From: Tateyamaria omphalii
GTDB taxonomy: Bacteria; Pseudomonadota; Alphaproteobacteria; Rhodobacterales; Rhodobacteraceae
Assembly (NCBI RefSeq): GCF_014651375.1
Contig: NZ_BMWT01000009.1
Coordinates: 1 to 64,000 of the forward strand
Reading direction: 5' to 3'
Length of the DNA: 64,000 nucleotides
The position numbers and the translations under genes are program-made. The notes below the pieces were generated by a model. The model searched no databases. It had not been told where the DNA came from and saw nothing but the letters and a program-made list of their open reading frames with translations. Shown here piece by piece: positions 1 to 23,250 of the stretch (position 1 is the first letter of the stretch; the number at the start of each line of letters is the position of its first letter).

Positions 1-1338
1 TACACATCCGGATCCACCGGAACTCCAAAGGGCGTCCTCGGCACAAACTCATGCCTCGTGAACCTGGCGGACTGGCAGGCAAACGAATATTCAAAGCACG
101 CAAGCCGCGTCGGGCAGATGACAAACATCAGCTTTGATGTTTCCATTCAGGAGATACTGTTTGCACTGACGTGTCGTGCCCCTCTTGCGATACCGCCAGA
201 AGACACTCAAATCGGAACGATCCAGACTTCGAAATGGCTGTCAGAGAAAGCTGTCGGTAACATATTCATGCCGACGTCGCTGATGAATTTGCTGTCAGAA
301 AGCATCCAGGATGTAGATGCCGATGACATTGCGATCACTGATATTTTTCAAGGCGGAGAACCCTTGAAACTAACAAAATCAGTGCGCGACATGCTGGAAA
401 TAGGCAAGGTCGAGCGTATCCATAATCATTATGGTGCGTGTGAAACGCACAACTCGACCTCATTTACTGCAAAGGTCGCTGATCTTTCCGATGGTCCGCT
501 GGTTCCGGCAGGACGCCCGATCCAGAATGTTCAGATTTACGTCCTGGATGGCACTCTGAACCCGGTACCGCCGGGCACGATCGGAGAAATCTACGCAGCC
601 GGTGCCGGAACGGCGCGTGGATACCTTGGCCGACCGGTACAGACCGCCGAAAGGTTCATAGCCAATCCTGCAGATACGACGGGCGGTCGGCTCTACCGAA
701 CAGGAGACACGGGATACTTCGACAGAAAGGGGCAACTCGTGGTTCTTGGCCGTGCTGACCGTCAGATCAAGATCAACGGCGCAAGGGTGGAACTGGGTGA
801 GATTGAAGCCGCCCTGCAGGATCACCCAAGTGTCCGACGCATCGTTGTGGCCATGCGGGAAGGCAAGAACGCAAACAAAGTCTTGGTTGCCTATTATGTG
901 CCGGACGAAGACGCCGGGATCGATCAGGAAGTGCTGCGAACATTCGCGCGCAAGCGTCTACCGACCTTCATGTTGCCCAGTCAGTTCGTCGAAATCGATG
1001 CTGTGCCGTTGTCACCAAATGGCAAGCTCCTTTTGGAAAAGCTCCCGGTTCCCGATGTGACACAACAGAGGAAGAGTGGACCGATCAGCGACGAAGAGCG
1101 CAAACTTGCAGGTGTTTTCTGCGACATTCTGGGAGTCGATCACGTCGGGTTGGATGAGAGTTTTTTCCAGCTGGGCGGCCATTCGCTTTTGGCAATCAAA
1201 GCGATCAACAGGATCAAACAGAAGATGGGGCGAAACATTACTGTCCGGCAGTTCTTTATGTCTCCTACCGTGTCTGCACTTGCCGGCGAATTGAAATCCG
1301 CAAAGCCGGTCTCGCGGCCGCAGTTGGTTAAAAATTGA
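1..1338 (+). CDS. NRPS adenylation-PCP protein, 5' end outside window
   Basis: The reading frame is open from the first base and starts inside the A3 motif (TSGSTGTPKG), so the N-terminal third of the adenylation domain lies upstream. A5, A7 (YRTGDTGY), A8 (DRQIKINGARVELGEIE) and A10 (SPNGKLLLEK) follow. A C-terminal carrier domain has the phosphopantetheine site LGGHSLL. The enzyme should activate an amino acid as its AMP ester and load it on its own PCP. Pocket residues read by eye are D-V-Q-F-F-G-H-N-S-K. The first three match the proline code, but the rest does not, so the substrate is uncertain. The A5 core is unusual: YGACE replaces the common YGPTE. No condensation or thioesterase domain follows before the stop. 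The SagB gene starts 9 bases downstream. Confidence 0.9.
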   Translation, partial: YTSGSTGTPKGVLGTNSCLVNLADWQANEYSKHASRVGQMTNISFDVSIQEILFALTCRAPLAIPPEDTQIGTIQTSKWLSEKAVGNIFMPTSLMNLLSESIQDVDADDIAITDIFQGGEPLKLTKSVRDMLEIGKVERIHNHYGACETHNSTSFTAKVADLSDGPLVPAGRPIQNVQIYVLDGTLNPVPPGTIGEIYAAGAGTARGYLGRPVQTAERFIANPADTTGGRLYRTGDTGYFDRKGQLVVLGRADRQIKINGARVELGEIEAALQDHPSVRRIVVAMREGKNANKVLVAYYVPDEDAGIDQEVLRTFARKRLPTFMLPSQFVEIDAVPLSPNGKLLLEKLPVPDVTQQRKSGPISDEERKLAGVFCDILGVDHVGLDESFFQLGGHSLLAIKAINRIKQKMGRNITVRQFFMSPTVSALAGELKSAKPVSRPQLVKN

Positions 1339-1347
1339 GGTGGCGCC

Positions 1348-2760: not shown

Positions 2761-3555
2761 ATGCAGAGCGACGGTTTTACAGAAAGCGACGCATGCGGCA
2801 TCGGATCCGGGCACATTGTTGTCTGCGGTGGCACGTCGGGTCTGGGGCTGGAGTGCGCGCGCGTTTTTCTGGCTGCGGGCCATGACGTTCACTGTGTTGG
2901 TCGCACTGATACGGGCTTGATACGCGCCCGTGAGACCTTGGCGGGCTTTGAAAACGCGCATTTCATCCAGTGTGATCTGACAGTGCGAGAGGACCGCGAA
3001 GCGCTGGTTCAAGCCGTCTCGAAGAGAACAGATGCCATCGACCTGCTGGTCAATAGCTGCGGCACGATTTCCGGTGATGGGTTTGCGCAGGAATCCGAAG
3101 CCGAGTGGCAGAGAGTCATGGAACACAATCTGTCGGCCGCCGTGAATTCGAGCCGGGATTTTCTGGAGTTGCTGAAGAAATCCGGTCGTTCCTCTATCAT
3201 CAATATCTCGTCGATCTGCTCACAACATCCCTGCACATCGTTTTCATATTCTGTGTCCAAGGCCGCGTTGGACATGGCAACCAGATCGATGGCGAAGGAT
3301 CTGGCGGTTTTTGGGATACGAGTAAACAGCGTCAACCCCAGTGTGGTTCCCACAAACCTGCAGAAATCGGCTGGTGTCACTGCGAACGATGACTCTTTCG
3401 AAACATGGTTGGACAGCATGCTGCCACTGCACCCGTTGGGCCGGTTGGGTACACCGTCCGATGTTGCGGCGGCAGTCGAATTTCTAGCCTCATCCAAGGC
3501 CAGCTGGATCACCGGTGCAATACTCAACGTAGATGGAGGTCGTGCCGTGAACTAA
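2761..3555 (+). CDS. SDR-family oxidoreductase of the NRPS cluster
   Basis: This is a classical short-chain dehydrogenase/reductase of 264 residues. It has a Rossmann GGTSGLG near residue 23, an NSCG in the place of NNAG near 98, Ser150/151, the YxxxK pair Tyr163/Lys167, and a C-terminal GAILNVDGG. Such enzymes reduce ketones or oxidise alcohols with NAD(P)H. The ATG follows the SagB stop codon directly (TAGATG), which implies translational coupling. The placement suggests reduction or oxidation of the NRPS-derived intermediate. The best-known relatives are 3-oxoacyl-ACP reductases, but no fatty-acid genes are nearby. The substrate cannot be predicted. Confidence 0.9.
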   Translation: MQSDGFTESDACGIGSGHIVVCGGTSGLGLECARVFLAAGHDVHCVGRTDTGLIRARETLAGFENAHFIQCDLTVREDREALVQAVSKRTDAIDLLVNSCGTISGDGFAQESEAEWQRVMEHNLSAAVNSSRDFLELLKKSGRSSIINISSICSQHPCTSFSYSVSKAALDMATRSMAKDLAVFGIRVNSVNPSVVPTNLQKSAGVTANDDSFETWLDSMLPLHPLGRLGTPSDVAAAVEFLASSKASWITGAILNVDGGRAVN

Positions 3556-3610
3556 CCCTGGTCGCTTGTCGACCATCTTGGAAATTTGGCTGCGTAGAGC
3601 AAGGATTGCA

Positions 3611-5266
3611 ATGGCTCGAATTTATGAAAATCCAGCTATAGATGTCGATTCCGATGGCGGCAGCGACGTCGAATGCAATCGTGTCGAACAGACCGTTCAA
3701 AAGACAGTTGAGCAGGTTTTACGCGATGGGTTGTCACGAACAGGGTGCTGTACACCGCTTGATATGCCGCCTGAGTTTAGCGAGGGACCAAGGGCTTATG
3801 CTGGACCCCAAAGAAGCAGGTTCGCCGAGGTAGGTAACGACCCACACCATTTGACAGGCTTGCAACAATCGCCATCGATGGAAAACGGTGGCTTTGACTT
3901 AGACCTGAAAGCGCTGTCCGGTTTACTGAACCGTCTGGATCAGTCTGTTTCTAACACAGCGCTGGATGATGCTCTTGGGCGTGGTACCGGGCCGCTTGGT
4001 AATCTGGCGCGGAAGCTGGCAGACGTGTTTGGCTCTTCCAGCGTCAGGTACGCGCCACATGGGACAAGTTTGGCCAATGTGGCCCTTGTGCTGGCACTGA
4101 ATTCCCTGACCCGGAAAAGGTTGAAACTTGCCGTTGATCGCAGTTGTCACAAGAGCCTTGTCGCCGGGTTGGCATTGATAAACGCGGAAATAGTCTGGAT
4201 CGAGCGCGATGTTTCGCCCGTTTGTGACGTTCCGATGCCTCTGACCGCAAAGCACTTTCGCGCGCTGCTAGAGGCGCACAACGACTTGCACGCTGTTTTT
4301 GTCACCTCGCCGACTTACGAGGGGTTTTCAAGTGATGATCCCGCCGCGATTGCCGAAGTGTTCCGAGCGTCAGACACACGTCTGATTGTCGACTCTGCAT
4401 GGGGCGTTTACGGAGGTCTGTTCTCGAACACAGAGTTTCCAAATTCGACCGCACCGTTTGCATCTGCCAGTGTTTTTTCAGCTCACAAGAAAGGCGTTGG
4501 CCTGTCTGGGGCAAGTTTCGTTACATTCAATGACGCAGCGCTTTGCGCAGCATACGAGAAGTTTTGCGACTTGGGGTTTGTGTCCACCTCGCCAAACTTC
4601 ATCAATTACCTGGTTTTGGAGCATTGTACTGACTTTTGGATATCTCCGATGGGTCATGCCTGCGCAGATCGCCTTGCCAGAGAAAGCCGCAATTTCAGGA
4701 TGCGCCTTGCCGAAATCGATGGGGTGCAGGTCGTCGCCGCAAGTGATCTGGGCAAGGGGGTGGCCGATGATCCAAGCCATGTGCTGATCGATATCAGCGA
4801 TACAAAGCGAAGTGGAAGACAGGTTGCGGATTACCTTGCACGGCGACACGCCATGGACATCGAAATGGTCATCGCCGAAAAGATACTGTTCCTGTTTGGC
4901 CCCGCGCATATCAGTACCTGGCCCAACATTGTGCGCGCACTTCAGGACGCATTGACCAATCTGGAGCCGGAAACCGGGCCGCGTGAAGTCGTTGCGCCGT
5001 CACCAATTGCCGATGACTGGCGTGGGATGCATGACGCGATCATGACGCCAACCCGGCAGGTTCTGCCAACGCATGCAGTAGGATGCGTGGCAGCATTCCC
5101 GATATCGGCATACCCACCAGGGCGTCCTCTCATTCATCCAGGGGAGCGGTTCTCAAAGGAAATTGTCGACTACCTGATCGCGATCGAAGCGGAAGGCGCA
5201 CGATTGATCGGTGTGAAGGGAGCACTGAACGAGTTCGGTTTTACGGTGACGGATGAATCATCATGA
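3611..5266 (+). CDS. Orn/Lys/Arg decarboxylase-family PLP enzyme
   Basis: This is a fold-type I PLP enzyme of the prokaryotic ornithine/lysine/arginine decarboxylase family, 551 residues. Visible landmarks are HGTSLANVA, DRSCHKS, TSPTYEG, the cofactor aspartate in VDSAWGVYGG, the Schiff-base lysine in SAHKKG, and the C-terminal YPPGRPLIHPGE with the typical OKR_DC_C pattern. The N-terminal wing domain of the large E. coli enzymes is missing, as in the shorter SpeA/Cad-like forms. The ATG at 3611 is preferred because AAGGA lies 5 bases upstream. A TTG at 3566 would add 15 residues. It may decarboxylate a basic amino acid to supply an amine, or act on a carrier-bound substrate; the context does not decide. 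Confidence 0.85.
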   Translation: MARIYENPAIDVDSDGGSDVECNRVEQTVQKTVEQVLRDGLSRTGCCTPLDMPPEFSEGPRAYAGPQRSRFAEVGNDPHHLTGLQQSPSMENGGFDLDLKALSGLLNRLDQSVSNTALDDALGRGTGPLGNLARKLADVFGSSSVRYAPHGTSLANVALVLALNSLTRKRLKLAVDRSCHKSLVAGLALINAEIVWIERDVSPVCDVPMPLTAKHFRALLEAHNDLHAVFVTSPTYEGFSSDDPAAIAEVFRASDTRLIVDSAWGVYGGLFSNTEFPNSTAPFASASVFSAHKKGVGLSGASFVTFNDAALCAAYEKFCDLGFVSTSPNFINYLVLEHCTDFWISPMGHACADRLARESRNFRMRLAEIDGVQVVAASDLGKGVADDPSHVLIDISDTKRSGRQVADYLARRHAMDIEMVIAEKILFLFGPAHISTWPNIVRALQDALTNLEPETGPREVVAPSPIADDWRGMHDAIMTPTRQVLPTHAVGCVAAFPISAYPPGRPLIHPGERFSKEIVDYLIAIEAEGARLIGVKGALNEFGFTVTDESS

Positions 5267-5359
5267 GTTGCGACCCCGAAAACCATACACCCCACCCTAG
5301 GCATCGTGAGTGCAAGCCCATGCTTTCTCGTTGGTCAGGGTCAGCAAAGGGAGAACACT

Positions 5360-7204
5360 ATGCATCGACCTGAAGAGATTGATCAACAGAATGCCGGGAA
5401 TGTCGGTCTTCCGCGAGGATCGCTTGCGGATGTGTTTGAAGCGCAGGTTGCTAAATCTCCTGACGCTGTCGCATTGGTCTTTGGCTCGGTCGAGATGACT
5501 TTTGACGAATTGGACCAACGGTCAACAGATTTTGCCAGCCTGCTGCGTGACAAGGGTGCTGGACCTGAAAAGGGTGTCGCACTTTTGTTGCCACGTACCC
5601 CTGAGTTGGTCGTTGCGATCGTCGCCGTTATCAAAACGGGCGGGTTCTATGTTCCTCTACACAACGACAGCCCAGATCGGCGCCTTGCTGATATGCTGCG
5701 GATGGTGGATCCGGTCGCTGTCATTGCTGAAGAGGTTGAACGTGCGACAGCGATTGCGCCAGCTGGGTGCACTGTCTTTGATCCAAAGCGCGTCACGCAT
5801 GGCAATATCGATCAGCGTAAAGAACATGTTCGCGCAGATTATCAATCCTTGGCCTATGTGATGTTTACCTCTGGCTCGACCGGGGCTCCGAAAGCTGTGG
5901 CGGTGACACACGGAAACGTCAAAAAGCTTGGCCTCGACCACAGATGGCCAAAGGGCCGCCGCGTTCTATTAAATGCCCCGCAATCGTTCGATGCGTCCAC
6001 ACATGAGATTTGGAGCACCCTTCTTGGTGGCGGAACGATCATTATCCCGGAAAAGAGTCTATCGACACCCGAAGATATGCAGGATGTGGTAGAGGAGTAT
6101 CGGGTAGATCATCTATGGCTCACGGCGGGTCTGTTCGGTGTCTTTGCAGAAACCTGTCCGGAAGCATTTCGCTCGGTAGGTGATGTGATGGTTGGTGGCG
6201 ATACCGTATCGCCCCATGCTGTCGGTCGGGTCCAGGCCGCGGCACCTGAAATCAAGCTGGGCAACGGGTACGGACCCACAGAATGCACCACATTTTCAGC
6301 GGCTTACGATATCCCCAAATGGGGAACTGACCCAATTCCCATTGGGTCCGCGATGGATAATACATCGGTATACTTACTGGATGAAAAACTGAGGGAGGTT
6401 GCAACAGGAGACGTCGGAGAGCTTTACATCGCAGGTTCCGGACTGGCCCGCGGGTATCTGTGTGCGCAAGCTATGACAGCCGAACGTTTTGTCGCCTGTC
6501 CTCATGGTTCAGGGGCTCGCATGTATCGCACAGGCGATCTGGGCCGAAAGCGATCCGATGGCGTGATCGAGTTTGCTGGTCGTGCCGACGAGCAGGTGAA
6601 AATACGTGGATTTCGGATTGAGCCGGCCGAGGTGGAAACGGTGCTGCTTGGACGCAAAGATATTGAGCATTGCATAGTTGTATCCAGGGAGGACAGGCCT
6701 GGCGTCAAGCATCTGGTGGCTTACGTTGTTGCAACGGACGCCAAAGAACCCGACCAGCAGGAAATGAAAAAGCAGCTGGCCGAAAACTTGCCAGACTACA
6801 TGGTGCCTGCTGCCATTGTTGCAATTGATGCAATGCCTCTTACGCCAAACGGAAAGGTTGATCGCAAAGCATTGCCGGCACCGACGTATGAGGCACAGCC
6901 AGAAGCACCGGATGCGCCAATGGCGCTGTCCCCACAGCAAGAACTACTAACTAATATTTTTGTGGACGTGTTGGGCATTGAAAGCGTTGGCCTTAATGAA
7001 GATTTCTTTGATCTTGGTGGCGACTCCCTTTTGGCGACGCGGCTTGTTGGGAAAATTCGGGCGGCCACAAACAAGGAAATTGACGTTCGTGCCGTTTTCG
7101 AAAATCCAAAAATCGCAGCGATCGACACCTATCTGGAGCACGCTGCGGACAGCAAACGCCCTGCGTTGGGTGGCCGGGTGACGGCCCCTCTAGCCAGTCC
7201 ATAG
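5360..7204 (+). CDS. Free-standing NRPS A-PCP module
   Basis: A complete adenylation domain (residues about 20-505) is followed by a carrier domain with LGGDSLL, pantetheinyl Ser556. Core motifs include FTSGSTGAPK (about 169-178), NGYGPTE (302-308), YRTGDLG (389-395), EQVKIRGFRIEPAEVE (411-425) and PNGKVDR with Lys499. Pocket residues by alignment to GrsA are D211 A212 H215 W253 M277 G279 G303 T311 F312 K499. This is close to the classical valine code DAFWIGGTFK, so a branched or medium hydrophobic amino acid is a reasonable guess. The ATG at 5360 has GGGAG 6 bases upstream; an in-frame upstream start at 5306 lacks such a site. There is no condensation domain, so the aminoacyl-PCP must be used in trans, for example by the oxidoreductases here. 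Confidence 0.92.
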   Translation: MHRPEEIDQQNAGNVGLPRGSLADVFEAQVAKSPDAVALVFGSVEMTFDELDQRSTDFASLLRDKGAGPEKGVALLLPRTPELVVAIVAVIKTGGFYVPLHNDSPDRRLADMLRMVDPVAVIAEEVERATAIAPAGCTVFDPKRVTHGNIDQRKEHVRADYQSLAYVMFTSGSTGAPKAVAVTHGNVKKLGLDHRWPKGRRVLLNAPQSFDASTHEIWSTLLGGGTIIIPEKSLSTPEDMQDVVEEYRVDHLWLTAGLFGVFAETCPEAFRSVGDVMVGGDTVSPHAVGRVQAAAPEIKLGNGYGPTECTTFSAAYDIPKWGTDPIPIGSAMDNTSVYLLDEKLREVATGDVGELYIAGSGLARGYLCAQAMTAERFVACPHGSGARMYRTGDLGRKRSDGVIEFAGRADEQVKIRGFRIEPAEVETVLLGRKDIEHCIVVSREDRPGVKHLVAYVVATDAKEPDQQEMKKQLAENLPDYMVPAAIVAIDAMPLTPNGKVDRKALPAPTYEAQPEAPDAPMALSPQQELLTNIFVDVLGIESVGLNEDFFDLGGDSLLATRLVGKIRAATNKEIDVRAVFENPKIAAIDTYLEHAADSKRPALGGRVTAPLASP

Positions 7205-7257: not shown

Positions 7258-8070
7258 ATGACCCCACAAGACGCAATCAGCCGAATTTCCGACGTTGCAG
7301 AAAAATCTGACTTGATCCGCGCGCTGTTCATGAGCGGCAGCTATGGCTCCGGTTTGCAAGATGAATACAGCGATCTGGATTTTCTGGCGATCGTCGATTC
7401 AGACAACCTTGATGCGTTTAGCGCGATTTGGCGTGAAGCGGTTGAGCAGGCGGGTCCAATTGTCTTGTGGTGGGACCGACAAGTCAAAGGCATGTTGATC
7501 AATGCAATCACGCAGAGTTGGCTTCGCATCGATGTTGTTGCGCTTGGCGTGGAGCATGCAAACGGCCATGCGCGCAGTCAGCTGAAAGTCATTTTTGACA
7601 AGGACAAGATTGCGGATCAACTGCCGAATCCGATCCCTGGTCCGCAGGTCAGCCCGGCACGCCTGTCCCACGATTTTCAGGAGTTCGTGCGCATCATGGG
7701 CCTGCTACCCGTGGCGATTGGCCGGAACGAATTGGTCAATGCGGTAACTGGCCTGGTGCATTTGCGGCGAATGCTAATTGAACTGCTGATACTCGAAACA
7801 GATGCCCCAAATCGCGGTGGTGCTTTGCACTTGAATCGCCTGATTTCCCCAGATCAGAACCAATTATTGAAAGATCTTCCGCCTCTTATGCCAGAGCGGG
7901 ACGCTATCATCCGTGGTCACCTCGAATACGCCAAGGCATATCTGCCAAGAGCGAAAAGACTTGCCCAGCAATACAACGTGACTTGGCCGCACGAACTCGA
8001 AGCGGCGACTTGGTCCCACCTTCGCGCAACGCTTGGTGTCTCCGAACCTGATGTGGCTGTCATGGCATGA
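7258..8070 (+). CDS. Nucleotidyltransferase-fold protein
   Basis: Residues 27-42 (GSYGSGLQDEYSDLDF) are the hallmark GS...DxD of the DNA polymerase beta nucleotidyltransferase superfamily, with Asp39 and Asp41 as likely metal ligands. The rest resembles aminoglycoside-type nucleotidyltransferases: a small catalytic domain followed by a helical domain. AGGAGG 3-8 bases before the ATG is the strongest ribosome site of the cluster. Members transfer an NMP to small molecules such as antibiotics or to proteins. In an NRPS operon this could be product or precursor nucleotidylation, or self-resistance. Its stop overlaps a possible upstream start of the phosphatase gene. A second NTase-fold gene lies at 18782-19882. 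Confidence 0.82.
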   Translation: MTPQDAISRISDVAEKSDLIRALFMSGSYGSGLQDEYSDLDFLAIVDSDNLDAFSAIWREAVEQAGPIVLWWDRQVKGMLINAITQSWLRIDVVALGVEHANGHARSQLKVIFDKDKIADQLPNPIPGPQVSPARLSHDFQEFVRIMGLLPVAIGRNELVNAVTGLVHLRRMLIELLILETDAPNRGGALHLNRLISPDQNQLLKDLPPLMPERDAIIRGHLEYAKAYLPRAKRLAQQYNVTWPHELEAATWSHLRATLGVSEPDVAVMA

Positions 8071-8120
8071 CGCTCCCGCATGATGTTCCAAGTTCAACAC
8101 TGACAGTCGAGGAGATGCCC

Positions 8121-8882
8121 ATGTTTGAAAACATTGAGAATTTTCGTGATCTTGGTGGAGCTATGGGAAGAGAAGGGCAAATCGTGCGTTCAGATGTAGT
8201 GTATCGCTCAAGTGATCACTCACACGCGACCGACCAAGACCTTGATAGGCTCAAACAGTTGAACATCGGGACGATCGTCGATTTGAGACGACCGTTGGAA
8301 CGGGAACGCGCGCAATCGCGCCGTCCCGAGGGTGTCACCTATGATGTCATTACTTCTGATATTCCCGAAGAGCGTCTGGATTGGGCTGTCGCACTAAAGG
8401 ACGTTGATCACGTGGACCTTGCTTGGTTCGATCGCGAAGCAAGAGAGTTTTACATCAACGGAGCGAAGATAGAGCGGTATGTGGATCTTTTCAGCCGATT
8501 TTTCCAGCTGCTGGCACATTCCGACGCGCCGATCCTAACACATTGCTCTGCTGGCAAGGACAGAACCGGCATGTTGTGCGCACTGGTTCTGCATACAGTT
8601 GGCGTCCACCGCGATGATATTGTCGCCGAGTTTGTCAAAACAAATGACCCCAAGCGCATTGCCAGAGCAAAACCGCGGTTAAGGGCCTGGTTGCAAAAAA
8701 CGTCGGGGCACGTTGTGGATGATGAGGCATTGGAATTCGCGCTGAGCGTACATCCCGAACACATGGACCTGATGTTTTGCCAGTTGGAAGAGGAATTTGG
8801 TTCCACTGACGAATATCTGTCAAAGGTTCTGGGTGTCGACAGCGGGCTGAAATCGAGGATCGAAACCCGATTGCTGAGCTGA
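8121..8882 (+). CDS. Tyrosine-phosphatase-like (Y_phosphatase3) enzyme
   Basis: The protein has the family's N-terminal NFRDLGG (residues 7-13), a VDLRRPLE strand near 53-60, and the active-site loop HCSAGKDRTG with nucleophile Cys142 and Arg148. This family holds dual-specificity and small-molecule phosphatases related to bacterial PTPs such as MptpB. The start at 8121 is chosen for GAGGAG 6 bases upstream. An in-frame ATG at 8067 overlaps the previous stop (ATGA) and would add 18 residues. Next to a nucleotidyltransferase it could remove a phosphate from a pathway intermediate. A protein-signalling role is the alternative. Confidence 0.87.
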   Translation: MFENIENFRDLGGAMGREGQIVRSDVVYRSSDHSHATDQDLDRLKQLNIGTIVDLRRPLERERAQSRRPEGVTYDVITSDIPEERLDWAVALKDVDHVDLAWFDREAREFYINGAKIERYVDLFSRFFQLLAHSDAPILTHCSAGKDRTGMLCALVLHTVGVHRDDIVAEFVKTNDPKRIARAKPRLRAWLQKTSGHVVDDEALEFALSVHPEHMDLMFCQLEEEFGSTDEYLSKVLGVDSGLKSRIETRLLS

Positions 8883-8947
8883 ATGGAAATCCAAATCAAA
8901 CAGCGGACAAACCTGAGCAACTTCAGAAGGCCAGAGGATCAATCTTG

Positions 8948-9553: not shown

Positions 9554-9971
9554 CTTGGAGAATATCACGCAATTCAAATTGTGAGGTAAACAATTTAGGT
9601 GTGTCACTGCCTCAGGCGGTGTCTTTAGTGTGCTAAAATGAAAAACCTATTTCTTCATTTTAGAACTTTTTTATTGGTTTATGACGTATCTGCACTGAAC
9701 GAAAATTTATGTTCACCCTGGCAACATGCTGTTGTGTCAATTGAAAAATTACGCCTGGTGGTTTTCTTCGGAAAGCCGCGGATTCAATGCTCATTTGGGC
9801 GAATTTTTGCTACCCAATGTGAGGGCCAGGTTGAAATATCTGAAAAACCCGTAAAACTGGCAAAGTGCACCTGTGAATATTGGCCAATTTCGCCAAGCCA
9901 AAGGCCGTTGGATGATTATCCAATTGGCTTGGCTTCTATTCGGCCTGAAATCGAACACACGGAGTGACAAG
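9554..9971. other. AT-rich intergenic region without a convincing gene
   Basis: This is the longest gap in the biosynthetic cluster. A 109-codon frame (9638-9967, +) exists but has no ribosome site, no recognisable domain and an irregular composition, so I do not call it a gene. The stretch holds a hairpin with a T run at 9633-9663, and probably a promoter for the downstream transcription unit, but no clear -35/-10 pair was found. It may divide the cluster into two transcripts. Confidence 0.5.
9633..9671 (+). terminator. Possible Rho-independent terminator
   Basis: The arms CTAAAATGAA (9633-9642) and TTCATTTTAG (9654-9663) pair perfectly over 10 bases with an 11-base loop. Soon after comes a run of six T. 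The stem is AT-rich, so termination strength is doubtful. It lies 80 bases after a methyltransferase gene, a sensible place for a transcript end. Confidence 0.4.
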
Positions 9972-15167: not shown

Positions 15168-15789
15168 CCCATTTTATCATAGCGGCATGCGGGTTGTGCA
15201 GGATCGGTTTGGCGGGCGTGACACGGCGGATGCCATTCACAAGCACTTTGTCACGACCACCCTGACAGAGGAACAAATCGCCATCATTGCCGGGTCACGC
15301 GCCTTCTTTGTTGCAACAAGCTGGGACAGTCACGTCGATTGCAGCATGAAGTGCGGCAAAGATGGGTTTGTGCGCGTGATGGCGCCCAACATCATTGAGT
15401 ACCCAGAATACAACGGTAACTCCATGTACCGAACCTTGGGGAATCTCGAAAGGAACCCGAATTGCGGGTTGCTGTTTGTTGACCTCGAAAACGGGGGCAA
15501 CCGGCTTCGTCTTAGAGGTCAGGCGCAGGTGTTTTACGGAGGCAAGAGACTTCATGCGCATCAAGGGGCCTGTGCGGTTGTCCGTGTTCGAGTAGTGAGT
15601 TTCCCCAACTGCAGCCGATATCGCCCTCGCTTTGATGGATCGGACCGGGAAACCTATGATCCGGCCAACGATGTTCGAACTGTGCCCAAGTGGAAAACGC
15701 TGGCCGAGGTTGCGCCCACACTACCCGAAAGTGATCCACATTTTGAGGCCTTGCAGCCCGCCAAACCAACGCCGGGCAGCGACACATGA
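15154..15789 (+). CDS. Pyridoxamine-5'-phosphate-oxidase-like FMN split-barrel protein
   Basis: The sequence pattern SRAFFVATSWDSHVDCSMKCG...GNSMYRTLGNLERNPNCGLLFVD is typical of the PNPOx-related FMN-binding split barrel family. These proteins bind FMN or F420 and often act as oxidoreductases or flavin partners. The start at 15154 (ATG) lies inside the monooxygenase gene; an ATG at 15160 is equally possible. The central strand after RLRGQAQVFYGG is followed by an odd AHQGACAVVRVRVVSFPNCSRY segment. It may supply reduced flavin to, or work on the same intermediate as, the upstream monooxygenase; this is inference from adjacency. Confidence 0.8.
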   Translation: MTMRDPFYHSGMRVVQDRFGGRDTADAIHKHFVTTTLTEEQIAIIAGSRAFFVATSWDSHVDCSMKCGKDGFVRVMAPNIIEYPEYNGNSMYRTLGNLERNPNCGLLFVDLENGGNRLRLRGQAQVFYGGKRLHAHQGACAVVRVRVVSFPNCSRYRPRFDGSDRETYDPANDVRTVPKWKTLAEVAPTLPESDPHFEALQPAKPTPGSDT

Positions 15790-15802
15790 ATTGGGTTTCT
15801 AG

Positions 15803-17731
15803 ATGTGTGGCATAGCTGGTGTAGTAACCTCGGCTCCGCAAGATGATTTGGCAGGGACAGTACGGCGCATGACTGCAACTTTGGGCCACCGGGGGCCGGA
15901 CGGTGCGGGTGTGTGGTCGTCCGACGATGGCACAGTCAGTTTGGGCCATCGCCGATTGTCGGTGGTAGATCTTGATGATCGCGCAAGCCAACCGATGAAA
16001 GACGCCTCGGGTCGGTATGTGATCAGCTTCAATGGCGAGGTCTATAACTTTCGCACCTTGCGCAAAGAGTTGTCCGGGGCAGGGTACGCGATGTCTACCC
16101 AATCAGACACCGAAGTACTGATCGAAGCATTTGCCAACTGGGGTGTCAGACGCACCCTGGACAGAATTCAGGGCATGTTCGCCTTCGCGGTTTGGGACGA
16201 TGTGGCAAAGGTGTTTTATCTGTGCCGCGACCGTTTTGGAATCAAGCCATGTTACTGGCGTTTTGACAGCGGTGTTTTTTCCTTTGGGTCTGAGATGAAG
16301 GCTCTCTTTGCCTGTGCCGAAAATCCGCTGCCGCTGAACCCGGCAGCGATCGCGCATTTGCTGGATTTTGACTATGTGCCGTCGCCCGACAGCGTGTTCC
16401 AAGGCATCCAGCAGCTGGCGCCTGGTGAACTTCTGATTATGAAACGCGGAGAACCGCCGACTGTTTCTCCATACTGGTCATTGGAAACAGAGCGCAAAAA
16501 CCGAACGGGGTTGCTTGCCGAGCGATCAGATGCCGAACTTTTGGATGAATGTGACACGCTCCTGAATCAGGTGATCGAAGAATACCTTGATTGCGATGTC
16601 CCAACGGGTTGTTTTCTGTCGGGCGGAATAGACTCATCACTTATTTCGGCGATTGCTTCGAGGAAGCTGCAATCGCCGTTGCGTACGTTTTCAATTGGCT
16701 TCTCAGAGGCGTCTTGGGACGAAAGCGGACGAGCACGAAAAATCGCAAGCTACATCGGAACCAAGCATGAAGAGTTGATTTTGACAGCCCGGATGGCGCA
16801 GGACCTGGTTGAAGCAATCCCGGACTACTACGATGTCCCCTTTGCGGATTTTTCGCAGCTGCCAACACTTGCAGTAAGCCGCCTTGCAAGAAACGAAGTC
16901 ACCGTTTGCCTTTCGGGCGACGGTGGTGATGAGCTGTTTGCCGGGTATGACCGATATGACTGGAGCCAACGGATTTGGGCGTTGCATCGCGCGTTGCCAG
17001 GACCCGTTTACAAGGGTTTGAACGCATTGTGCAGCAGCCGGTTCATGAGGTCGGTCAGATCAGCCTTGCCACCCCATGTGAGCGAAACAGTTAGGCGCTT
17101 GCCGGAATTTGCACTGAACGGGGCCGCTCCCGCCACATTTGATGACTACTACAAGACGATTATGCGCAATCATCCGAGTTGTTTGCATGAAGGAACAGCA
17201 ACTGAGTCCCTGGCATCAACCGTTCCCTATTGGATAGAAGGCGCCGGGCTTGAGCGGCTTGATTCCATGCAGATCGCCGATATCCGTCACTATATGGGTG
17301 ATGGCATTTTGACCAAAGTTGATCGTGCGAGCATGAGTGTCGGACTGGAGGTGCGGATACCCTTTTTGAATGAACGGATGGTCGACTTTGCATTTTCACT
17401 GCCCATGAGAAGCAGACATTCAAAATCCGGTTTGCGCAGTTTAGAAAAACAACTTGCCTACAGATACATACCCAAAGCACTTCTAGACAGCCCCAAAATG
17501 GGGTTCGGGTTTCCCGTCGACAGCTGGCTGAGAGCAGAACTGCGCGATTGGGCTGAGGACCTTCTCTCGCACAGCAGGCTTAAACAACTGCCCTACATTA
17601 ACGCGGGGAAGGTTCGCAAATTGTGGGATCAGCACATCTCGGGGACCGTGGACAGGCACTGGCAATTGTGGCCAGTGCTTATCTATTCGCAGTGGATGCA
17701 ACGGTGGAAAACCCACATAGCGATGCCATAG
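15803..17731 (+). CDS. Asparagine synthase-like glutamine amidotransferase
   Basis: The protein begins MCGIAGV, so Cys2 is the glutaminase nucleophile once Met is removed. The class II GATase domain (about 1-210) includes LGHRGPDG, SFNGEVYNF and DTEVL. The synthetase domain has the PP-loop SGGIDSS and CLSGDGGDELFAGY, plus KVDRASM and VRIPFLN. At 642 residues it is the long AsnB form common in secondary-metabolite clusters, where it converts carboxylates to amides or closes rings by acyl-AMP chemistry. No clear Shine-Dalgarno precedes the start, but Cys2 fixes it. It ends the first run of cluster genes; the next two genes point the other way. Confidence 0.92.
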   Translation: MCGIAGVVTSAPQDDLAGTVRRMTATLGHRGPDGAGVWSSDDGTVSLGHRRLSVVDLDDRASQPMKDASGRYVISFNGEVYNFRTLRKELSGAGYAMSTQSDTEVLIEAFANWGVRRTLDRIQGMFAFAVWDDVAKVFYLCRDRFGIKPCYWRFDSGVFSFGSEMKALFACAENPLPLNPAAIAHLLDFDYVPSPDSVFQGIQQLAPGELLIMKRGEPPTVSPYWSLETERKNRTGLLAERSDAELLDECDTLLNQVIEEYLDCDVPTGCFLSGGIDSSLISAIASRKLQSPLRTFSIGFSEASWDESGRARKIASYIGTKHEELILTARMAQDLVEAIPDYYDVPFADFSQLPTLAVSRLARNEVTVCLSGDGGDELFAGYDRYDWSQRIWALHRALPGPVYKGLNALCSSRFMRSVRSALPPHVSETVRRLPEFALNGAAPATFDDYYKTIMRNHPSCLHEGTATESLASTVPYWIEGAGLERLDSMQIADIRHYMGDGILTKVDRASMSVGLEVRIPFLNERMVDFAFSLPMRSRHSKSGLRSLEKQLAYRYIPKALLDSPKMGFGFPVDSWLRAELRDWAEDLLSHSRLKQLPYINAGKVRKLWDQHISGTVDRHWQLWPVLIYSQWMQRWKTHIAMP

Positions 17732-17785
17732 CGGGTCTCTCCAAGCCCTTGGATGAGAAGTGCCAGCTAGCACTACAAAATCCAT

Positions 17786-18646
17786 TTACATCTCCAGAAG
17801 CGATCTCGGAACTTCGACCATTGCTGAATATGGTTCGTGACCGGCCAGACCAAATTTTACCGACCCCATGCAGCTGATCAGCATCGCAGTCTCATCTGCT
17901 GTGACATCACGAGTCTGCATGAGCAGATCACTTGTGCCTTTGACGGCCATTTCAACGGCGATTTCCATTGTATCACCAAAGCCCATACAACAAACAAACT
18001 CGTCGTTCATCACAAGCGGTTGCTGAACTTTGATATCTTCTTCCTTTGTCACGCGAAGGACCACGTTGACGGCGCATTCAATGGCAGAACAAGCCACCTC
18101 ACCCGAACCATGCAACGCATGACCATCAGCTAAAGTTAACAACGCCCCGTCATGGAAGGTGGGAAGGAAAATGCTGGCCCCCTTTGTCACCATTGGGTTG
18201 CCCATCGCACCACCGAACGTGCCATTGTGATTGCTTTGGACCGATCCGGTTAGAGGAGCGACACCTATCCTGCTGATCATTGGTTTTATGGGTAGGATGA
18301 TGTCATCATTGAAGTTCACGCCGCCTGCGGTGATTTTTACGTGCTGTCGCAAGAATTTGCTGACCCTGTCTTGCAAAGGTCCGCGTCCGGTCACGACCAA
18401 CCACCCATCGGAAGAAGGCAGTTGCATATCCAATATTTCAACCTTGATGGCGTCTCCGGCCTTAACGCCTTCGATTTCAATCGGGCCGGTCATGGTCGAC
18501 AAGACTTCCATCGGAACAGGGCGTTCCAGATGTGAAATCCTGTCTTGGGTTTCCACACCGAACTGCTCTCCCAGCTTTGCCTTGAAAAGCGGCTTGTTGT
18601 CCGCGCTATAGCTCGTGCAAACCTGAAAGCTCTCTATGATGTTCAT
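17786..18646 (-). CDS. Acetamidase/formamidase-family amidohydrolase
   Basis: The 286-residue protein has the pattern of the FmdA/AmdA family: TMTGPIEIEGVKAGDAIKVEILDM near the N-terminus, PIKPMISRIGVAP, NHNGTFGGAMGNPMV with metal-binding-type residues, and DGHALHGSGEVACSAIE. Members hydrolyse formamide, acetamide or related small amides, releasing ammonia. The inner ATG at 18646 is chosen because GGAG lies about 10 bases before it; an ATG at 18661 would add 5 residues. It is convergent with asnB, 54 bases apart. It could deformylate or deamidate a pathway intermediate, or be unrelated nitrogen metabolism. Confidence 0.85.
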   Translation of the reverse strand: MNIIESFQVCTSYSADNKPLFKAKLGEQFGVETQDRISHLERPVPMEVLSTMTGPIEIEGVKAGDAIKVEILDMQLPSSDGWLVVTGRGPLQDRVSKFLRQHVKITAGGVNFNDDIILPIKPMISRIGVAPLTGSVQSNHNGTFGGAMGNPMVTKGASIFLPTFHDGALLTLADGHALHGSGEVACSAIECAVNVVLRVTKEEDIKVQQPLVMNDEFVCCMGFGDTMEIAVEMAVKGTSDLLMQTRDVTADETAMLISCMGSVKFGLAGHEPYSAMVEVPRSLLEM

Positions 18647-18781
18647 TTCTGGGCGCTCCATGACGTAGGTGAATATCCCGATACTTTGCCATGAAGGGGC
18701 AACAGTTCTCAGGCCCAGATAAAGGCATTACGTTTTTGCGCAGATTCCCGCCAAGCGAGTATTTGATGAGAGAGGTTGCGC

Positions 18782-19882
18782 CTATAATTCAGCCAGAGGG
18801 GGCAGAAGAAATGGAAAAATCTCGTCCATTTTTTTGCTGAGCAGAGGCGAAAAACGCTTTTTGCGAATGTGTAGGTTCCCGTACTCGGGTGTAAGGCCAC
18901 GGGTAGCAAAGCTGACTTTTAGCTTTTCAAGGGACAACAAGAATGCTCGCAAATCGTTGTCCAAATTGATGTCAGAAAATAGTGCGTCGAAACACGGCAT
19001 GGGCATGGTTGCAAATGGGCAAATCACGCCGAGATCTGGTTCAGGTGTTTGTGTAAAGTTTGGAACAGCCAACCGATTGCCGAACCTGGACGATTCCTCT
19101 TGGTAAGAGAGAAAATGATCGCGTCCCGCGAAGTCCCGGGCGAGCAAAGGCGCACCGTCAAAAGCGTCGTGCCAGTAAAGTACACTGCTGTTCCCGGCGT
19201 CCAGCGTGCAGATATGCTTCAGAGCGGACGCAGTGACGATGTTGAGGGACAGTTCAAAAGGGATATCGGTGAGGCGAATTTTGTAATTGAGTACGCCGCC
19301 TTCAGATCGAGACTTTTGCTCTGAAAAATATGCAAGCCGGTCTGGGTTGTCCGTCTCTTTTCCCAATGGCTGGTCGCCGTAGAGCGATAGGAGCTCAATC
19401 GGTGCATCATCTTTCGCCACAAGGAAAAGATCGATGTCCGACGTCCGCCCAGTGCCATAAAATGCGCCATACCCCAAAGAGCCCATCACGTAGCCAGCCA
19501 GAAATGTCCGCTGCAACGCCTTGGCGTAGCCATCGTGCAAGAAACTGAGCATTGCGGCAGACACGGTGATGGCTTCAGACAGGCGTATGTTCGCCGATGT
19601 AAGAATGTCTTCCGGTGCTGACTCTGACAGGGCCTGTCCGGCCTCTGTGATTTGGATCAACGTGCGTGTCCCATCGATGGTCCGCCCATGCCGCCAGAAA
19701 CCATCAAAAACGTATGAAACGAGATCTGCTTGACGTGTCCGCTGTTTGGGTTCGGCGGACCAGTCCAGCGTCAGAACCCAGTCTTTTGCCGAAGCTTCGT
19801 GCGCAATAGGCGCAATTTCAATGTGTTTTGCGACAATATCGTTCAACGCGAAAGCGTTCAAAAAAGATCCAAATGGTGTCAT
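18782..19882 (-). CDS. Second nucleotidyltransferase-fold protein
   Basis: In this 366-residue protein the motif GSLGYGAFYGTGRTSDIDLFLV carries the GS...DxD of the polymerase-beta nucleotidyltransferase superfamily. Before it lie about 130 residues with no recognised domain, and after it a helical region ending in a basic KKRFSPLLSKKMDE segment. It is not closely similar to the NTase at 7258-8070. The ATG at 19882 has GAGGAA 6 bases upstream; an earlier in-frame ATG at 19912 would run through a palindrome better read as regulatory DNA. Its substrate is unknown. It lies between the amidase gene and the divergent cysteine NRPS. Confidence 0.72.
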   Translation of the reverse strand: MTPFGSFLNAFALNDIVAKHIEIAPIAHEASAKDWVLTLDWSAEPKQRTRQADLVSYVFDGFWRHGRTIDGTRTLIQITEAGQALSESAPEDILTSANIRLSEAITVSAAMLSFLHDGYAKALQRTFLAGYVMGSLGYGAFYGTGRTSDIDLFLVAKDDAPIELLSLYGDQPLGKETDNPDRLAYFSEQKSRSEGGVLNYKIRLTDIPFELSLNIVTASALKHICTLDAGNSSVLYWHDAFDGAPLLARDFAGRDHFLSYQEESSRFGNRLAVPNFTQTPEPDLGVICPFATMPMPCFDALFSDINLDNDLRAFLLSLEKLKVSFATRGLTPEYGNLHIRKKRFSPLLSKKMDEIFPFLLPPLAEL

Positions 19883-19902
19883 GGGTATTCCTCGCAACGC
19901 TG

Positions 19903-19921
19903 CGGAACGCATTGCGTTCCG
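19903..19921. promoter_or_regulatory. Perfect 9-bp palindrome upstream of NTase gene
   Basis: CGGAACGCA, one central base, TGCGTTCCG forms a perfect dyad of 19 bases. It is 21 bases before the start of the minus-strand NTase gene, and in the intergenic space shared with the divergent NRPS. A repressor operator or an mRNA leader hairpin could explain it. No local regulator gene was identified. Confidence 0.4.
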
Positions 19922-20160
19922 GGGTCTTAAACACCCTATGTTCCGGTTCTGAATTTTGGCAATAGCGGTTCGCCGTCAGCCGGTCGGTCTTCAGAGAATA
20001 CGCGAAAAAGTGGGGTGTCAGATTCTTCTAACGGCGCTTTTCCACCGAAGATTCGTCCGGTTCTTCCAACGCTGTATATTATCGTTAATGTGGAATTTCG
20101 ACCAGTAATTCATATCACAGGTTGAATTTTGGCCTGTTGTACCGTTCACGGAGGAAGGCC

Positions 20161-23100
20161 TTGATCCACAGCGCTTTACTTGAACGGGCTGTCGAAAGCC
20201 CGGATGCACCCGCAATTTTCTTTCAGAATGAAGTGGTCAGCTACGGCGAGCTGGTTGCGCGAGCACGACAGTTCGCAGCTGCTCTTGTCGCGGCTGATGT
20301 CCGCCCTGATGATCGCGTGCTTGTCGGTGTTGAACGAAGCCCCGATCAGATCGCCTCTGTCATAGGTGTTTTGCTTACGGGCGCTGTCTATGTGCCTATC
20401 GACCCGTGCCAACCCGCGCTTCGGCTATCCAAAATTGCCGCACAGTGCGACCCTGCCGCTGTCATCATAAATCGAGATGTTGCAACAGATTGGGCCCCAG
20501 AAAGTACACGCATTACGACAAATCAACTGCCCGATTGCGAGACCTTCAATCCTGAGCGCAGGAGTGACGCCGCGCTGGCCTACATCATTTTCACATCCGG
20601 CACGACCGGTGTGCCGAAAGGGGTGGCTATTTCACATGGCGCTGCGTGGAACACGATCGAGGACATCAACGCGAGATGGTCCGTTACGTCGACCGATCGC
20701 GCGTTGGCGCTCTCCGCTCTGACCTTTGATTTGTCGGTCTACGATATTTTTGGAGTGTTGGCTGCTGGTGGAGCGCTTGTCGTTCCGGAACCAAAAAAAG
20801 CGAGAGAGCCAGCCGATTGGTTGCGTCTGGTCATTGAACACCGTGTCACCATTTGGAACTCCGTTCCGGCACTCATGGGAATGATGGTCGAGTATCTGGG
20901 GACAAAGGTCGAACAGGCGTCATCAACGGACATCAGGCTTGTGATGTTGAGCGGAGATTGGGTTCCCGTGAACTTGCCGGACCGCATCGCTAAGGTTTTT
21001 TTGCCGGAAGTCATCGTGTCGATGGGTGGCGCGACAGAGGTGTCGATCTGGTCAATCTACCACGAAATCACCGCTGTTTCGTCTGATTGGACGAGCGTTC
21101 CTTACGGGCGGGCTCTTAAAAACCAATCCGTACATATTCTGGACGAAGACTTGCTGCCCTGTGCACAGGGCGAGGAAGGCGAGATTTGCTTTGGCGGTAA
21201 GGGGCTCGCGCGCGAGTATTGGGGAGATCCGGACAAAACAAAGGCAAGTTTCGTTCAAACCGATCATCTTGGGCGTATTTACCGGACCGGCGACATTGGT
21301 CGCACAATGCCAAATGGAGAAGTCGAATTCCTTGGCCGTAGGGACACCCAGGTCAAGGTTGGTGGACACCGCATCGAACTGAGCGACGTCGAAGCGGCAC
21401 TACTCGAATACGATGGCGTGATCAAAGCAGTTGCCAAGATCATCGTCTCTGATGCGAATTCAGAAGACAAGTTTCTTGCTGCATTCGTTGTTGCAGAACC
21501 CGAAGGATTTGCACTGGATCACCTTCGTCAGTTTTTGAGAGAACGCCTGCCCGCTTACATGATGCCGGCGCGCATCGAGACGAGAGATACCTTGCCTTTG
21601 ACAGCCAACGGCAAGGTGGATCGCAGTGCGCTGCATCTCCGCAGTGTGCAGCTGTCAAACAATGACGCATCTGATCCACTGATGGCTTTGGTGATGTCCT
21701 GTCTGCATCAAGAGTTTCTCGAAGAAGACAGCAATTTCTTCGACTTCGGGGCGCAGTCACTTGTGCTCGTCCAGATGATTGCCCGGATCAGAGAGGAATT
21801 CGGTGTAGAGGTCGGACTTGGTGAACTGTTCGCGAATCCATCCGTGGCACAGGTGCGAAGACTGGTGGCTTCCGGAACGCCGCAGGAGCATCCTACGCGC
21901 AAACTGTCTGAATATGCTCCCAGCGCGCGGGCGTCCTACAATCAGGAACAGGTCTGCTTTCTTACGTCTTACTTTCGCTCAAGCCGTGCTTACAACTTTC
22001 AGGCAACGTTGGAGTTTACCGGTGATCTGGACATCTCCAGGCTGGAGCGGGCGATTTCGAAAGTGATTGAACGGCATGAAATGCTGCGCACGACTATCCA
22101 CCTGACAGACAAAGGCTATTGTTCAACGATCCATCCACCTTATCCGCTTGAAATTCCTTGTTACGATGTCTCAGATTTGCCGCGACGGGAACAAGACACC
22201 ATTTTTAACAACATGTTAGAAGAAACGCTCGACACTGTTTTCGAAGTCGACGTTCTTCCGATGTTGAAGGTGGTCGCAGTTAAGCGGTCCGATACGGAAT
22301 GGTCCTTGATCCAGATTGAACACCACGTTGTGCATGACGGCTGGTCCATCGGTCGATTGTGGAGCGAGATTCAAGAATGCTACGTCGCTGACGCAGCAGG
22401 CCGGGAACCAGATTTACCGCATCTCCCGGCACAGTATCAGAATTTTGTTGCGTGGCAGAGGGACCGTCTCGAAGGACGTTTTGGCCAGGATGCGCTGAAC
22501 AATATTGCAGCGTCTTTGGACGGTGCCGCGCTTGATGTGAAGGTTTCGCGGCGTCATATCGAAAACGCAGAACTTGGTGGCCACAATATCCGGCAGGTTC
22601 TGTCCGAGGAAACTGTGGCACTGGTACGAAAGCGCGCCCGAGAAATGCGTGTTTCAGACTACGCAGTCCTGTTTACGGTCTTTGCGGCATTTCTTGGCAA
22701 GCATGCCGGACAAGACGATTTCTGTGTTGGGGCAGCAGCAAGCGCAAGAATCGACCGCGAAACGGAACCGCTGATCGGGATGATTGTGAACACAGTCCCT
22801 GTGAGGGCTGATTTGACCGCAGGCGATAGTCTGGCACAACTGGTCCCCAGTCTTCATGCCGCGCAGATGAATGCCATGCGATATCAGGATGTGCCATTGG
22901 CGATGATTGTCAAAAAGCTGGGAGTCGAAAAGACTCAAGGACGCAATCCTGTCTTTCAGTACTGTTTCGGTTTTCACGATTCCGCGACTCCCGACTTTAA
23001 TTTTGGCGCTGCGCAGGGGCGCCTGCATGAAGAGCAAAACCAGACTGCGAAGTTTGACATCAACGTCATTGTGATCCCTCCAAGTAAAACACGACCGGAA

Positions 23101-23250
23101 AAACATGCCCGAGTGTTATGGGAGTTTTCCTCGCGACTGTTCACCGCGGAAGACGCAAAGCAGCTTTCGGATGAATACGCACAAAAATTGCTGCGTGCTC
23201 TCAAAAATCCAGAAGCAACGTTCAATCGTGAACCGTCCAACGTTGTGTAA
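20161..23250 (+). CDS. NRPS, A(Cys)-PCP-C
   Basis: Domain order is adenylation (about 1-490), carrier (about 505-570, FGAQSL with Ser533) and condensation (about 590-1010). Pocket residues D190 L191 Y194 N233 M262 S264 M288 I296 W297 K485 give DLYNMSMIWK, against the cysteine code DLYNLSLIWK, with only Leu-to-Met changes, so cysteine is a strong prediction. The condensation motif is HHVVHDG (721-727), an ordinary peptide-bond type, not the DxxxxD of heterocyclisation domains. The TTG start at 20161 is chosen for GGAGG six bases upstream; a TTG at 20122 has none. The C-terminal condensation domain needs an acceptor in trans, perhaps a PCP of the A-PCP proteins. No thioesterase follows. Confidence 0.93.
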   Translation: MIHSALLERAVESPDAPAIFFQNEVVSYGELVARARQFAAALVAADVRPDDRVLVGVERSPDQIASVIGVLLTGAVYVPIDPCQPALRLSKIAAQCDPAAVIINRDVATDWAPESTRITTNQLPDCETFNPERRSDAALAYIIFTSGTTGVPKGVAISHGAAWNTIEDINARWSVTSTDRALALSALTFDLSVYDIFGVLAAGGALVVPEPKKAREPADWLRLVIEHRVTIWNSVPALMGMMVEYLGTKVEQASSTDIRLVMLSGDWVPVNLPDRIAKVFLPEVIVSMGGATEVSIWSIYHEITAVSSDWTSVPYGRALKNQSVHILDEDLLPCAQGEEGEICFGGKGLAREYWGDPDKTKASFVQTDHLGRIYRTGDIGRTMPNGEVEFLGRRDTQVKVGGHRIELSDVEAALLEYDGVIKAVAKIIVSDANSEDKFLAAFVVAEPEGFALDHLRQFLRERLPAYMMPARIETRDTLPLTANGKVDRSALHLRSVQLSNNDASDPLMALVMSCLHQEFLEEDSNFFDFGAQSLVLVQMIARIREEFGVEVGLGELFANPSVAQVRRLVASGTPQEHPTRKLSEYAPSARASYNQEQVCFLTSYFRSSRAYNFQATLEFTGDLDISRLERAISKVIERHEMLRTTIHLTDKGYCSTIHPPYPLEIPCYDVSDLPRREQDTIFNNMLEETLDTVFEVDVLPMLKVVAVKRSDTEWSLIQIEHHVVHDGWSIGRLWSEIQECYVADAAGREPDLPHLPAQYQNFVAWQRDRLEGRFGQDALNNIAASLDGAALDVKVSRRHIENAELGGHNIRQVLSEETVALVRKRAREMRVSDYAVLFTVFAAFLGKHAGQDDFCVGAAASARIDRETEPLIGMIVNTVPVRADLTAGDSLAQLVPSLHAAQMNAMRYQDVPLAMIVKKLGVEKTQGRNPVFQYCFGFHDSATPDFNFGAAQGRLHEEQNQTAKFDINVIVIPPSKTRPEKHARVLWEFSSRLFTAEDAKQLSDEYAQKLLRALKNPEATFNREPSNVV

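Follow-up and report, generated by a model that had tools for sequence, protein, structure and literature searches.

In the bacillamide pathway (BmdA, BmdB and BmdC), as outlined in excerpts of its published description (PMC8795117), the amine made by a decarboxylase is captured by a terminal condensation (C) domain. A comparable set of parts is present in a nonribosomal peptide synthetase (NRPS) gene cluster of Tateyamaria omphalii, described here from a window comprising the first 64,000 nucleotides of contig NZ_BMWT01000009.1 (C9:1-64000, C9 being 116,703 bp in total) and from the remainder of that contig. Both systems combine a pyridoxal phosphate (PLP)-dependent decarboxylase, an NRPS module (for cysteine in the bacillamide pathway, cysteine-like here) ending in a C domain and an oxidase of the nitroreductase superfamily. 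They differ in that no cyclisation (Cy) domain was seen in the present cluster, which is distributed over three separate NRPS proteins and includes many more tailoring genes, and in that its decarboxylase is of the OKR type whereas that of the bacillamide pathway is a tryptophan decarboxylase.

The solanimycin cluster has in common with this locus the NCBIfam family SolG, found among the matches of the adenylation (A) domains, and SolJ, matched by a metallo-beta-lactamase (MBL)-fold protein. A relation was rejected. Both scores are far under the cut-offs (286.5 versus 2200 bits for SolG and 21.1 versus 350 for SolJ). The table of 12 open reading frames (ORFs) for the sol cluster, in extracts of its published accounts (PMC9765074, PMC10204066), lists a large polyketide synthase, a P450 and a MATE pump; proteins of the SagB, OKR and AsnB types are absent from it. 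Photosynthesis plasmids, in turn, have been described in Tateyamaria and its relatives (PMC6739100, PMC6052148). C9 resembles these roseobacter plasmids in being a replicon with a photosynthesis gene cluster, close to a plasmid of T. omphalii, and differs from them by the NRPS island inserted in it; the terms NRPS and nonribosomal are absent from the main text of the two papers.

Orphan NRPS clusters are common, and the cluster alone would be of ordinary novelty. Its value lies in being apparently complete but for one gap, on a small replicon and without near relatives among the sampled genomes, and in joining a bacillamide-like set of parts that lacks a Cy domain to a candidate resistance gene which would predict a target, complex I. 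The divergent NuoF within the island edge is new here, and the photosynthesis replicon of roseobacters can evidently carry a biosynthetic island. The likely purpose of the cluster is the synthesis of a small peptide containing cysteine. NuoF might serve to protect the producer itself and so point to the target; if the complex I reading were true, complex I would have a resistance gene that reveals it as the target.

The island and its insertion site

This roseobacter has acquired horizontally an NRPS island of at least 32 kb (at least 32.2 kb from border to border), which is inserted next to its photosynthesis gene cluster. The original prediction, made from the letters of the window, placed the cluster at positions 1-23,250. 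Its right end lies close to the true border at 23,387-23,388, where homology to the cluster-free sites of two relatives in the genus (G002 and G004) resumes at the 3' end of mdoG. At the left, the island does not stop at base 1 but continues on C9:~107,862-116,703, so that its full extent is this interval together with window positions 1-23,387. The borders were set by alignment against G002 and G004, and the G004 site holds 1,032 bp of other sequence between the flanks.

The left flank (C9:105,100-107,861) and the right flank (window 23,388 onward) were compared with 19 relatives in the genus. Both flanks lie on one contig in seven of them (G001-G005, G008 and G011), in the same orientation and 1.0-1.8 kb apart. 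In five more (G006, G007, G009, G017 and G018) the left flank is within ~1.1 kb of DNA that corresponds to the window from ~25,170 onward, and the matches listed beside it include none to mdoG; G010, G016 and G019 gave no left-flank match among the matches listed. The adjoining of the flanks in cluster-free relatives supports the reading that at least 32.2 kb was inserted and also the circularity of C9, which is probably a circular replicon of ~117 kb. The island genes tested are jointly missing from the relatives. Base composition sets the island apart as well: of 22 coding stretches in the operon and on the side of the third NRPS gene, 21 have a GC content of 0.49-0.56 (the exception is the C domain at the far end of C9), against 0.623 in the adjacent mdoG.

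The right flank shares 84.7% identity with the T. omphalii photosynthesis plasmid NZ_CP019315.1 across 90% of 24.9 kb, and window positions 23,388-48,300 constitute the photosynthesis gene cluster, with the island directly beside mdoG. A check for a DnaA-like I replicase gave, for a 231-aa protein, a DnaA_N match of 21.6 bits, below the cut-off of 24.6. At the left border, C9:108,069-108,338 (L036:4069-4338) carries a DUF1403-like remnant with matches of 67-70% to plasmids of Octadecabacter and Sulfitobacter. Two frames at this border (u266 and u196) were discarded as genes; they look like chance ORFs, with no family at cut-off and odd composition.

The NRPS proteins and the proposed assembly line

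Domain content was established by Pfam comparison of 20 ORFs of window 1-26,923, by NCBIfam comparison of 17 of these, up to position 23,250, and by motif checks. The three A domains have Pfam E-values of 1e-27, 5e-73 and 4e-77, which together with the one-strand run of genes from the MBL-fold protein to AsnB argue that the cluster is not due to chance. The A, peptidyl carrier protein (PCP) and C domains exceed the curated cut-offs and carry catalytic motifs, the PCP serine being present in all three carriers and HHxxxDG in both C domains. The inventory reads C-A-PCP, A-PCP and A(Cys-like)-PCP-C, that is, three carriers and two C domains. As the original prediction had stated, no thioesterase was found among the island proteins scanned, and neither a Cy domain nor an NRPS reductase domain was seen among them.

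The first NRPS gene is divided by the contig edge, which is base 1 of the window. Its A-PCP half (A1; 1-1338, plus strand, by Pfam and motifs) begins at position 169 of 384 of the A-domain model and has its C domain outside the window. At the far end of C9, a 422-aa plus-strand frame (C9:115,436-116,701; L036:11436-12701) matches Pfam Condensation at E 9e-79 over model positions 4-400 of 456 and is still open at the contig end. With this second C domain, which shares its strand with the A-PCP half, C-A-PCP becomes the most likely order of the first NRPS, and we strongly infer from the two ends that they belong to one gene across an unsequenced gap, put at roughly 0.8 kb from the domain models. 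The original prediction had given the first protein as a partial A-PCP and had regarded the C domain behind the cysteine module as the only one; the A-PCP at base 1 was read correctly, but the protein is most likely C-A-PCP and the sole C domain has been joined by a second, the domain inventory having been incomplete because of the contig edge.

The possibility that the missing NRPS piece resides on a small contig was rejected, since no match was found in the contigs and contig ends compared (C15-C22 whole). Across the whole of C13-C22 and the contig ends compared elsewhere, the three A-domain proteins matched only a chromosomal NRPS on C2, stretches within C12 and C13 at a lower identity of 23-31%, and C9's own end. 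That the end C domain is a repeat of another NRPS in the genome was likewise dismissed, as it had no second DNA match genome-wide. It has a patch of 0.69 GC within an operon of about 0.5 GC, possibly the trace of an exchange of C domains, and the contig breaks just behind this domain. The same genome has a further NRPS region, on the chromosome, at C2:465,001-485,000 (L073), where the frames are long, and a comparison of linkers between the island NRPSs and the chromosomal NRPS found no comparable sites.

The second NRPS (A2; 5306-7204, plus strand) is a stand-alone A-PCP protein by Pfam and motifs. The third (A3; 20122-23250, plus strand), identified in the same way, has carrier motif GAQS and C motif HHVVHDG. 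Specificity codes were read by eye at positions which we take to be the relevant ones: D-V-Q-I-F-G-H-N-S in A1 is partly proline-like and uncertain, and D-A-H-L-M-G-G-T-F in A2 has a valine-like end and is equally uncertain. The eye-read code of A3, D-L-Y-N-M-S-M-I-W, is near what is presumably the cysteine code. Furthermore, the A-PCP part of A3 matches the bacillamide synthetase BmdB at 1.6e-123, and BmdB is among its best solved matches. The original reading of a cysteine-like A domain with a C domain behind it at 20122-23250 is upheld, and A3 shows the bacillamide-type order of A, PCP and terminal C, with a cysteine specificity suggested by the eye-read code and the BmdB match.

A set of three carriers with two C domains suits a linear three-residue Cys-X-Y line, and we give about even chances to the module order A3, A2, C-A1, which would leave Cys-X-Y on the last carrier. 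A3 would load cysteine as the first residue and its C-terminal C domain would transfer this cysteine to the residue bound to the stand-alone A2-PCP, whereupon the C domain of C-A1-PCP would join the dipeptide to the A1 residue. Release could proceed by hydrolysis or amidation, through the MBL-fold protein or through AsnB with glutamine-derived ammonia, or by means of the amine from the OKR-type decarboxylase. Tailoring would involve the SagB-type dehydrogenase, a Baeyer-Villiger-type flavin monooxygenase (BVMO), P450-like and MIOX-like oxygenases, a short-chain dehydrogenase/reductase (SDR) and two methyltransferases, and an MsbA-like pump would export the product; product, module order, release and target are all predicted. 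The joining of cysteine to a partner in trans, as originally proposed, has lost its premise of a single C domain, but may still hold as ordinary first-residue logic with the A3 C domain feeding A2-PCP. Overall, an acquired NRPS island encoding a Cys-X-Y line is our best explanation, which we hold to be slightly more probable than not.

A bacillamide-like course, in which a free (poly)amine made by the OKR-type enzyme is the acceptor for the A3 C domain, a cysteinyl (or peptidyl-cysteinyl) amide is thereby released and the SagB-type flavoprotein oxidises a carrier-bound intermediate, appears rather unlikely. The three part types, PLP decarboxylase, cysteine-like module ending in a C domain and nitroreductase-superfamily oxidase, are the same, and the BmdB match of A3 is in its favour. 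However, BmdB has a Cy domain before its cysteine A domain, whereas A3 begins with the A domain and both C domains of the cluster are of the HHxxxDG type; a thiazoline as substrate for oxidation by SagB is accordingly not predicted. Nor was any BmdC chain among the four PDB matches of the SagB-type protein at E up to 1, and employing the A3 C domain for release would leave none for linking cysteine with the remaining two carriers.

The main operon, from the MBL-fold protein to AsnB, might make one product and A3 with two minus-strand genes another, as the location of the latter (17786-19912) between A3 and the operon would allow. The low GC and the insertion interval absent from relatives are nevertheless shared by both parts, and an A2 without a C domain of its own and an A3 ending in one fit a partnership, which makes two neighbouring systems very unlikely. 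A decaying or silent cluster is even less credible: it is not seen in other genomes sampled and no regulator was recognised among the island proteins scanned, but the main genes are intact ORFs with tight overlaps and most catalytic motifs are retained.

Several observations weigh against an acquired island with a Cys-X-Y line. The flanks are ~7 kb apart in G014, ~12 kb apart and inverted in G015, and on different contigs in G012 and G013. The two ends of C9 do not overlap, and the unsequenced gap between them could conceal extra modules or a Cy domain. The GC content of the end C domain, 0.626, is unlike the rest of its operon. Core motif A3 of the A2 protein ends in PKA, the PKG form not being found in A2, and the eye-read codes are uncertain guides in that those of A1 and A2 resemble no familiar code well. 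Finally, the motif check revealed no clear HxHxDH in the MBL-fold protein, even though this is a rival candidate for release to the AsnB or reductase originally proposed; as regards a reductase, no NRPS reductase domain was seen and the SDR is generic.

The additional NuoF at the left border

A full-length NuoF is encoded just inside the left island border on the minus strand (C9:108,822-110,183; L036:4822-6183), with the 51-kDa flavin mononucleotide (FMN) and 4Fe-4S domains above cut-off. NuoF was found at E<=1e-100 in 145 of 149 family genomes (one per genus in the tally, the present genome included), and two rows were obtained in three of them, namely the present genome, G080 (two fragments, possibly of one gene) and G108 (second copy 46% identical). 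The island gene is thus the only full-length close second copy among the 149, and each of the 19 other members of the genus had one nuoF-length DNA match among the matches listed.

Of the 337 positions with at least 95% conservation among 49 chromosomal copies, the island NuoF departs from the consensus at 16, and these copies themselves do so at 0-11. Two of the changes, T378S and A421G in ORF numbering, directly follow cysteines that we take to be ligands of the N3 iron-sulphur cluster. In the tree it falls outside the clade of 20 genus copies on the longest end branch, 0.28 (median 0.039), and pairs with two other long branches; support for the deeper forks is weak, and the bootstrap had yet to settle. 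The rate of nonsynonymous substitution (dN) is 0.09-0.11, compared with 0.06-0.09 for four chromosomal pairs, and that of synonymous substitution (dS) is at least 1.8 or saturated, which indicates that the island NuoF is under purifying selection.

Self-resistance duplicates of the ARTS type likewise consist of an extra divergent housekeeping copy beside a biosynthetic cluster, and the island NuoF is such a copy, rare in relatives and adjoining the cluster. The difference is that the target would here be the NADH module of complex I, for which no such case was found in the literature searched. The NADH-site inhibitors of complex I named in extracts of one account are ADP-ribose and NADH-OH (PMC11677225). 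From its sequence, the island NuoF is a candidate self-resistance gene resembling a transferred resistance target, and a passenger fits too. A role of this additional NuoF in sustaining complex I activity while the product is present is, in our view, a tentative and rather improbable proposal. The fuller scenario, in which a cysteine-containing peptide would poison the NADH-oxidising end of complex I and the producer would be protected by a plasmid-borne resistant NuoF travelling with the cluster, must be judged unlikely.

It is fairly probable, instead, that this NuoF is an accidental passenger or metabolic spare rather than a resistance gene. It lies on the opposite strand, ~1.2 kb from the operon and near the border, adjoining the DUF1403-like remnant; these features count against protection as its role, and it may be a passenger, the lack of a NuoF-type precedent in the literature searched pointing the same way. 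An idle passenger is less easily reconciled with retention under purifying selection, with a divergence at conserved positions above that of any of the 49 chromosomal copies, or with the rarity of second copies in the family and genus.

Distribution of the enzymes

The cluster is an orphan, having no close SagB relative in the samples searched and no characterised match. At E<=1e-8 the SagB-type protein was found in the genome under study only, among 394 family genomes and 398 phylum genomes (overlapping samples). A search of 195 relatives added four short matches at E 3e-5 or worse, and plasmids gave no match. Pattern scans of genome contigs returned 29 stretches for SagB and 592 for OKR without any relative, which is weak evidence as short patterns would miss moderate relatives and the window's own genome was possibly left out of that collection. 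A3 was confined to the genome under study in 301 class genomes at the strict limit of E<=1e-130, among the matches listed and with at most two candidates scored per genome. No published cluster with this enzyme combination was found in the literature searched. The original description of an unrecognised cluster is hence sustained, and neither a close characterised match nor a break in synteny, either of which it had named as contradicting it, has emerged, the genes tested being missing together from relatives.

The OKR-type enzyme is less isolated. Of 26 matches at E<=1e-3 in the 195 relatives, one is its own and one in G032 (37%, 2e-99), with the other 24 at 7e-22 or worse; 312 phylum genomes contributed, besides its own, three at 25-29%. 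A Mesorhizobium AR10 plasmid protein is 37% identical. These two relatives (36-37%) have other genomic surroundings, and tblastn of the island proteins against both loci found, besides OKR, only ABC ATPase genes and a Mesorhizobium C-domain stretch at 24%. The G032 gene (L027:17541-19046; L074:1063-2577), the closest in the family, adjoins a tRNA synthetase gene of class II (D, K and N) and lies near conjugation-type genes. On the Mesorhizobium plasmid (L026:12355-21404) the relative is near the C-domain stretch and genes for lysine 2,3-aminomutase, panD and ATP-grasp proteins, and this locus looks like another small peptide cluster. The synthetase and aminomutase neighbours provide a hint, but only a hint, of a basic amino acid as substrate.

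Other genes of the island

The genes from the MBL-fold protein to AsnB are on one strand with mostly short gaps or overlaps, and the enzymes named in the original prediction were all recovered by Pfam, NCBIfam and motifs (the A-PCP cut at base 1, SagB/nitroreductase, OKR, A-PCP, BVMO, AsnB and A-PCP-C). Ahead of the end C domain, the order on C9 is a GT2-type glycosyltransferase, a MIOX-type HD oxygenase, a P450-like protein and the MBL-fold protein, whose gene overlaps the start of the first NRPS gene. The MIOX-type protein, with inositol oxygenases as its best solved matches (E 2e-16), and the short, divergent P450-like protein with FGFGRHICPG occupy C9:112,339-114,131 (L036:8339-10131). The latter, of 337 aa, has no Pfam family even at E up to 5; an identification as alcohol dehydrogenase, taken from a plasmid annotation, was abandoned in view of the heme-type motif and weak P450 matches (E 0.0018).

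Within the window, all genes up to AsnB are on the plus strand. A1 is followed by the SagB/nitroreductase-superfamily flavin dehydrogenase (1348-2760), two-lobed by its matches in Pfam, NCBIfam and the PDB, which scores 51.6 bits with Pfam nitroreductase (cut-off 23.5) and 70.7 with NCBIfam SagB, below the cut-off of 78.4; among solved structures it comes closest to 3eo7, a putative nitroreductase chain (3e-11). The generic SDR (2761-3555; Pfam, NCBIfam) precedes the OKR-type PLP decarboxylase (3566-5266), which matches PF01276 at 60.6 versus 27 bits and retains the H-K lysine motif; the decarboxylated basic amino acid of the original prediction is suggested by this family membership. Downstream of A2 are a protein weakly resembling aminoglycoside/lincosamide-type nucleotidyltransferases (7258-8070; Pfam, NCBIfam, motifs), a tyrosine-phosphatase-family protein with CX5R (8067-8882; Pfam, motif), and two class I methyltransferases by Pfam (8945-9553 and 9873-10727, the real start of the second probably being within the ORF). 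An RNA 2',3'-cyclic phosphodiesterase of the LigT/2H family (10731-11369; TIGR02258, 87.4 versus a cut-off of 65.7) and the MsbA-like ABC exporter (11366-13213; Pfam, NCBIfam) come next.

The BVMO (13308-15167; Pfam, NCBIfam) has the features of type I enzymes, with GGGLSG at 69, GSGPSA at 247 and, at 211, the fingerprint [FY]xGxxxHxxxW[PD] in the form YQGHIFHTSSWD, and it matches phenylacetone and other BVMOs. A PNPOx-like FMN protein (15136-15789) remains under the curated cut-offs of Pfam and NCBIfam. The AsnB-type glutamine-hydrolysing amidotransferase (15803-17731; Pfam, NCBIfam) has Cys2 and SGGIDS. On the minus strand are an acetamidase/formamidase-family protein (17786-18661; Pfam) and a 376-aa protein (18782-19912) for which no family was found in Pfam or NCBIfam and which displays a nucleotidyltransferase-like G-S...D-I-D motif; its structure model, with a mean pLDDT of 36.6, was not used. 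One may speculate that the nucleotidyltransferase, phosphatase and phosphodiesterase beside the exporter form a set that would inactivate, export and reactivate the product.

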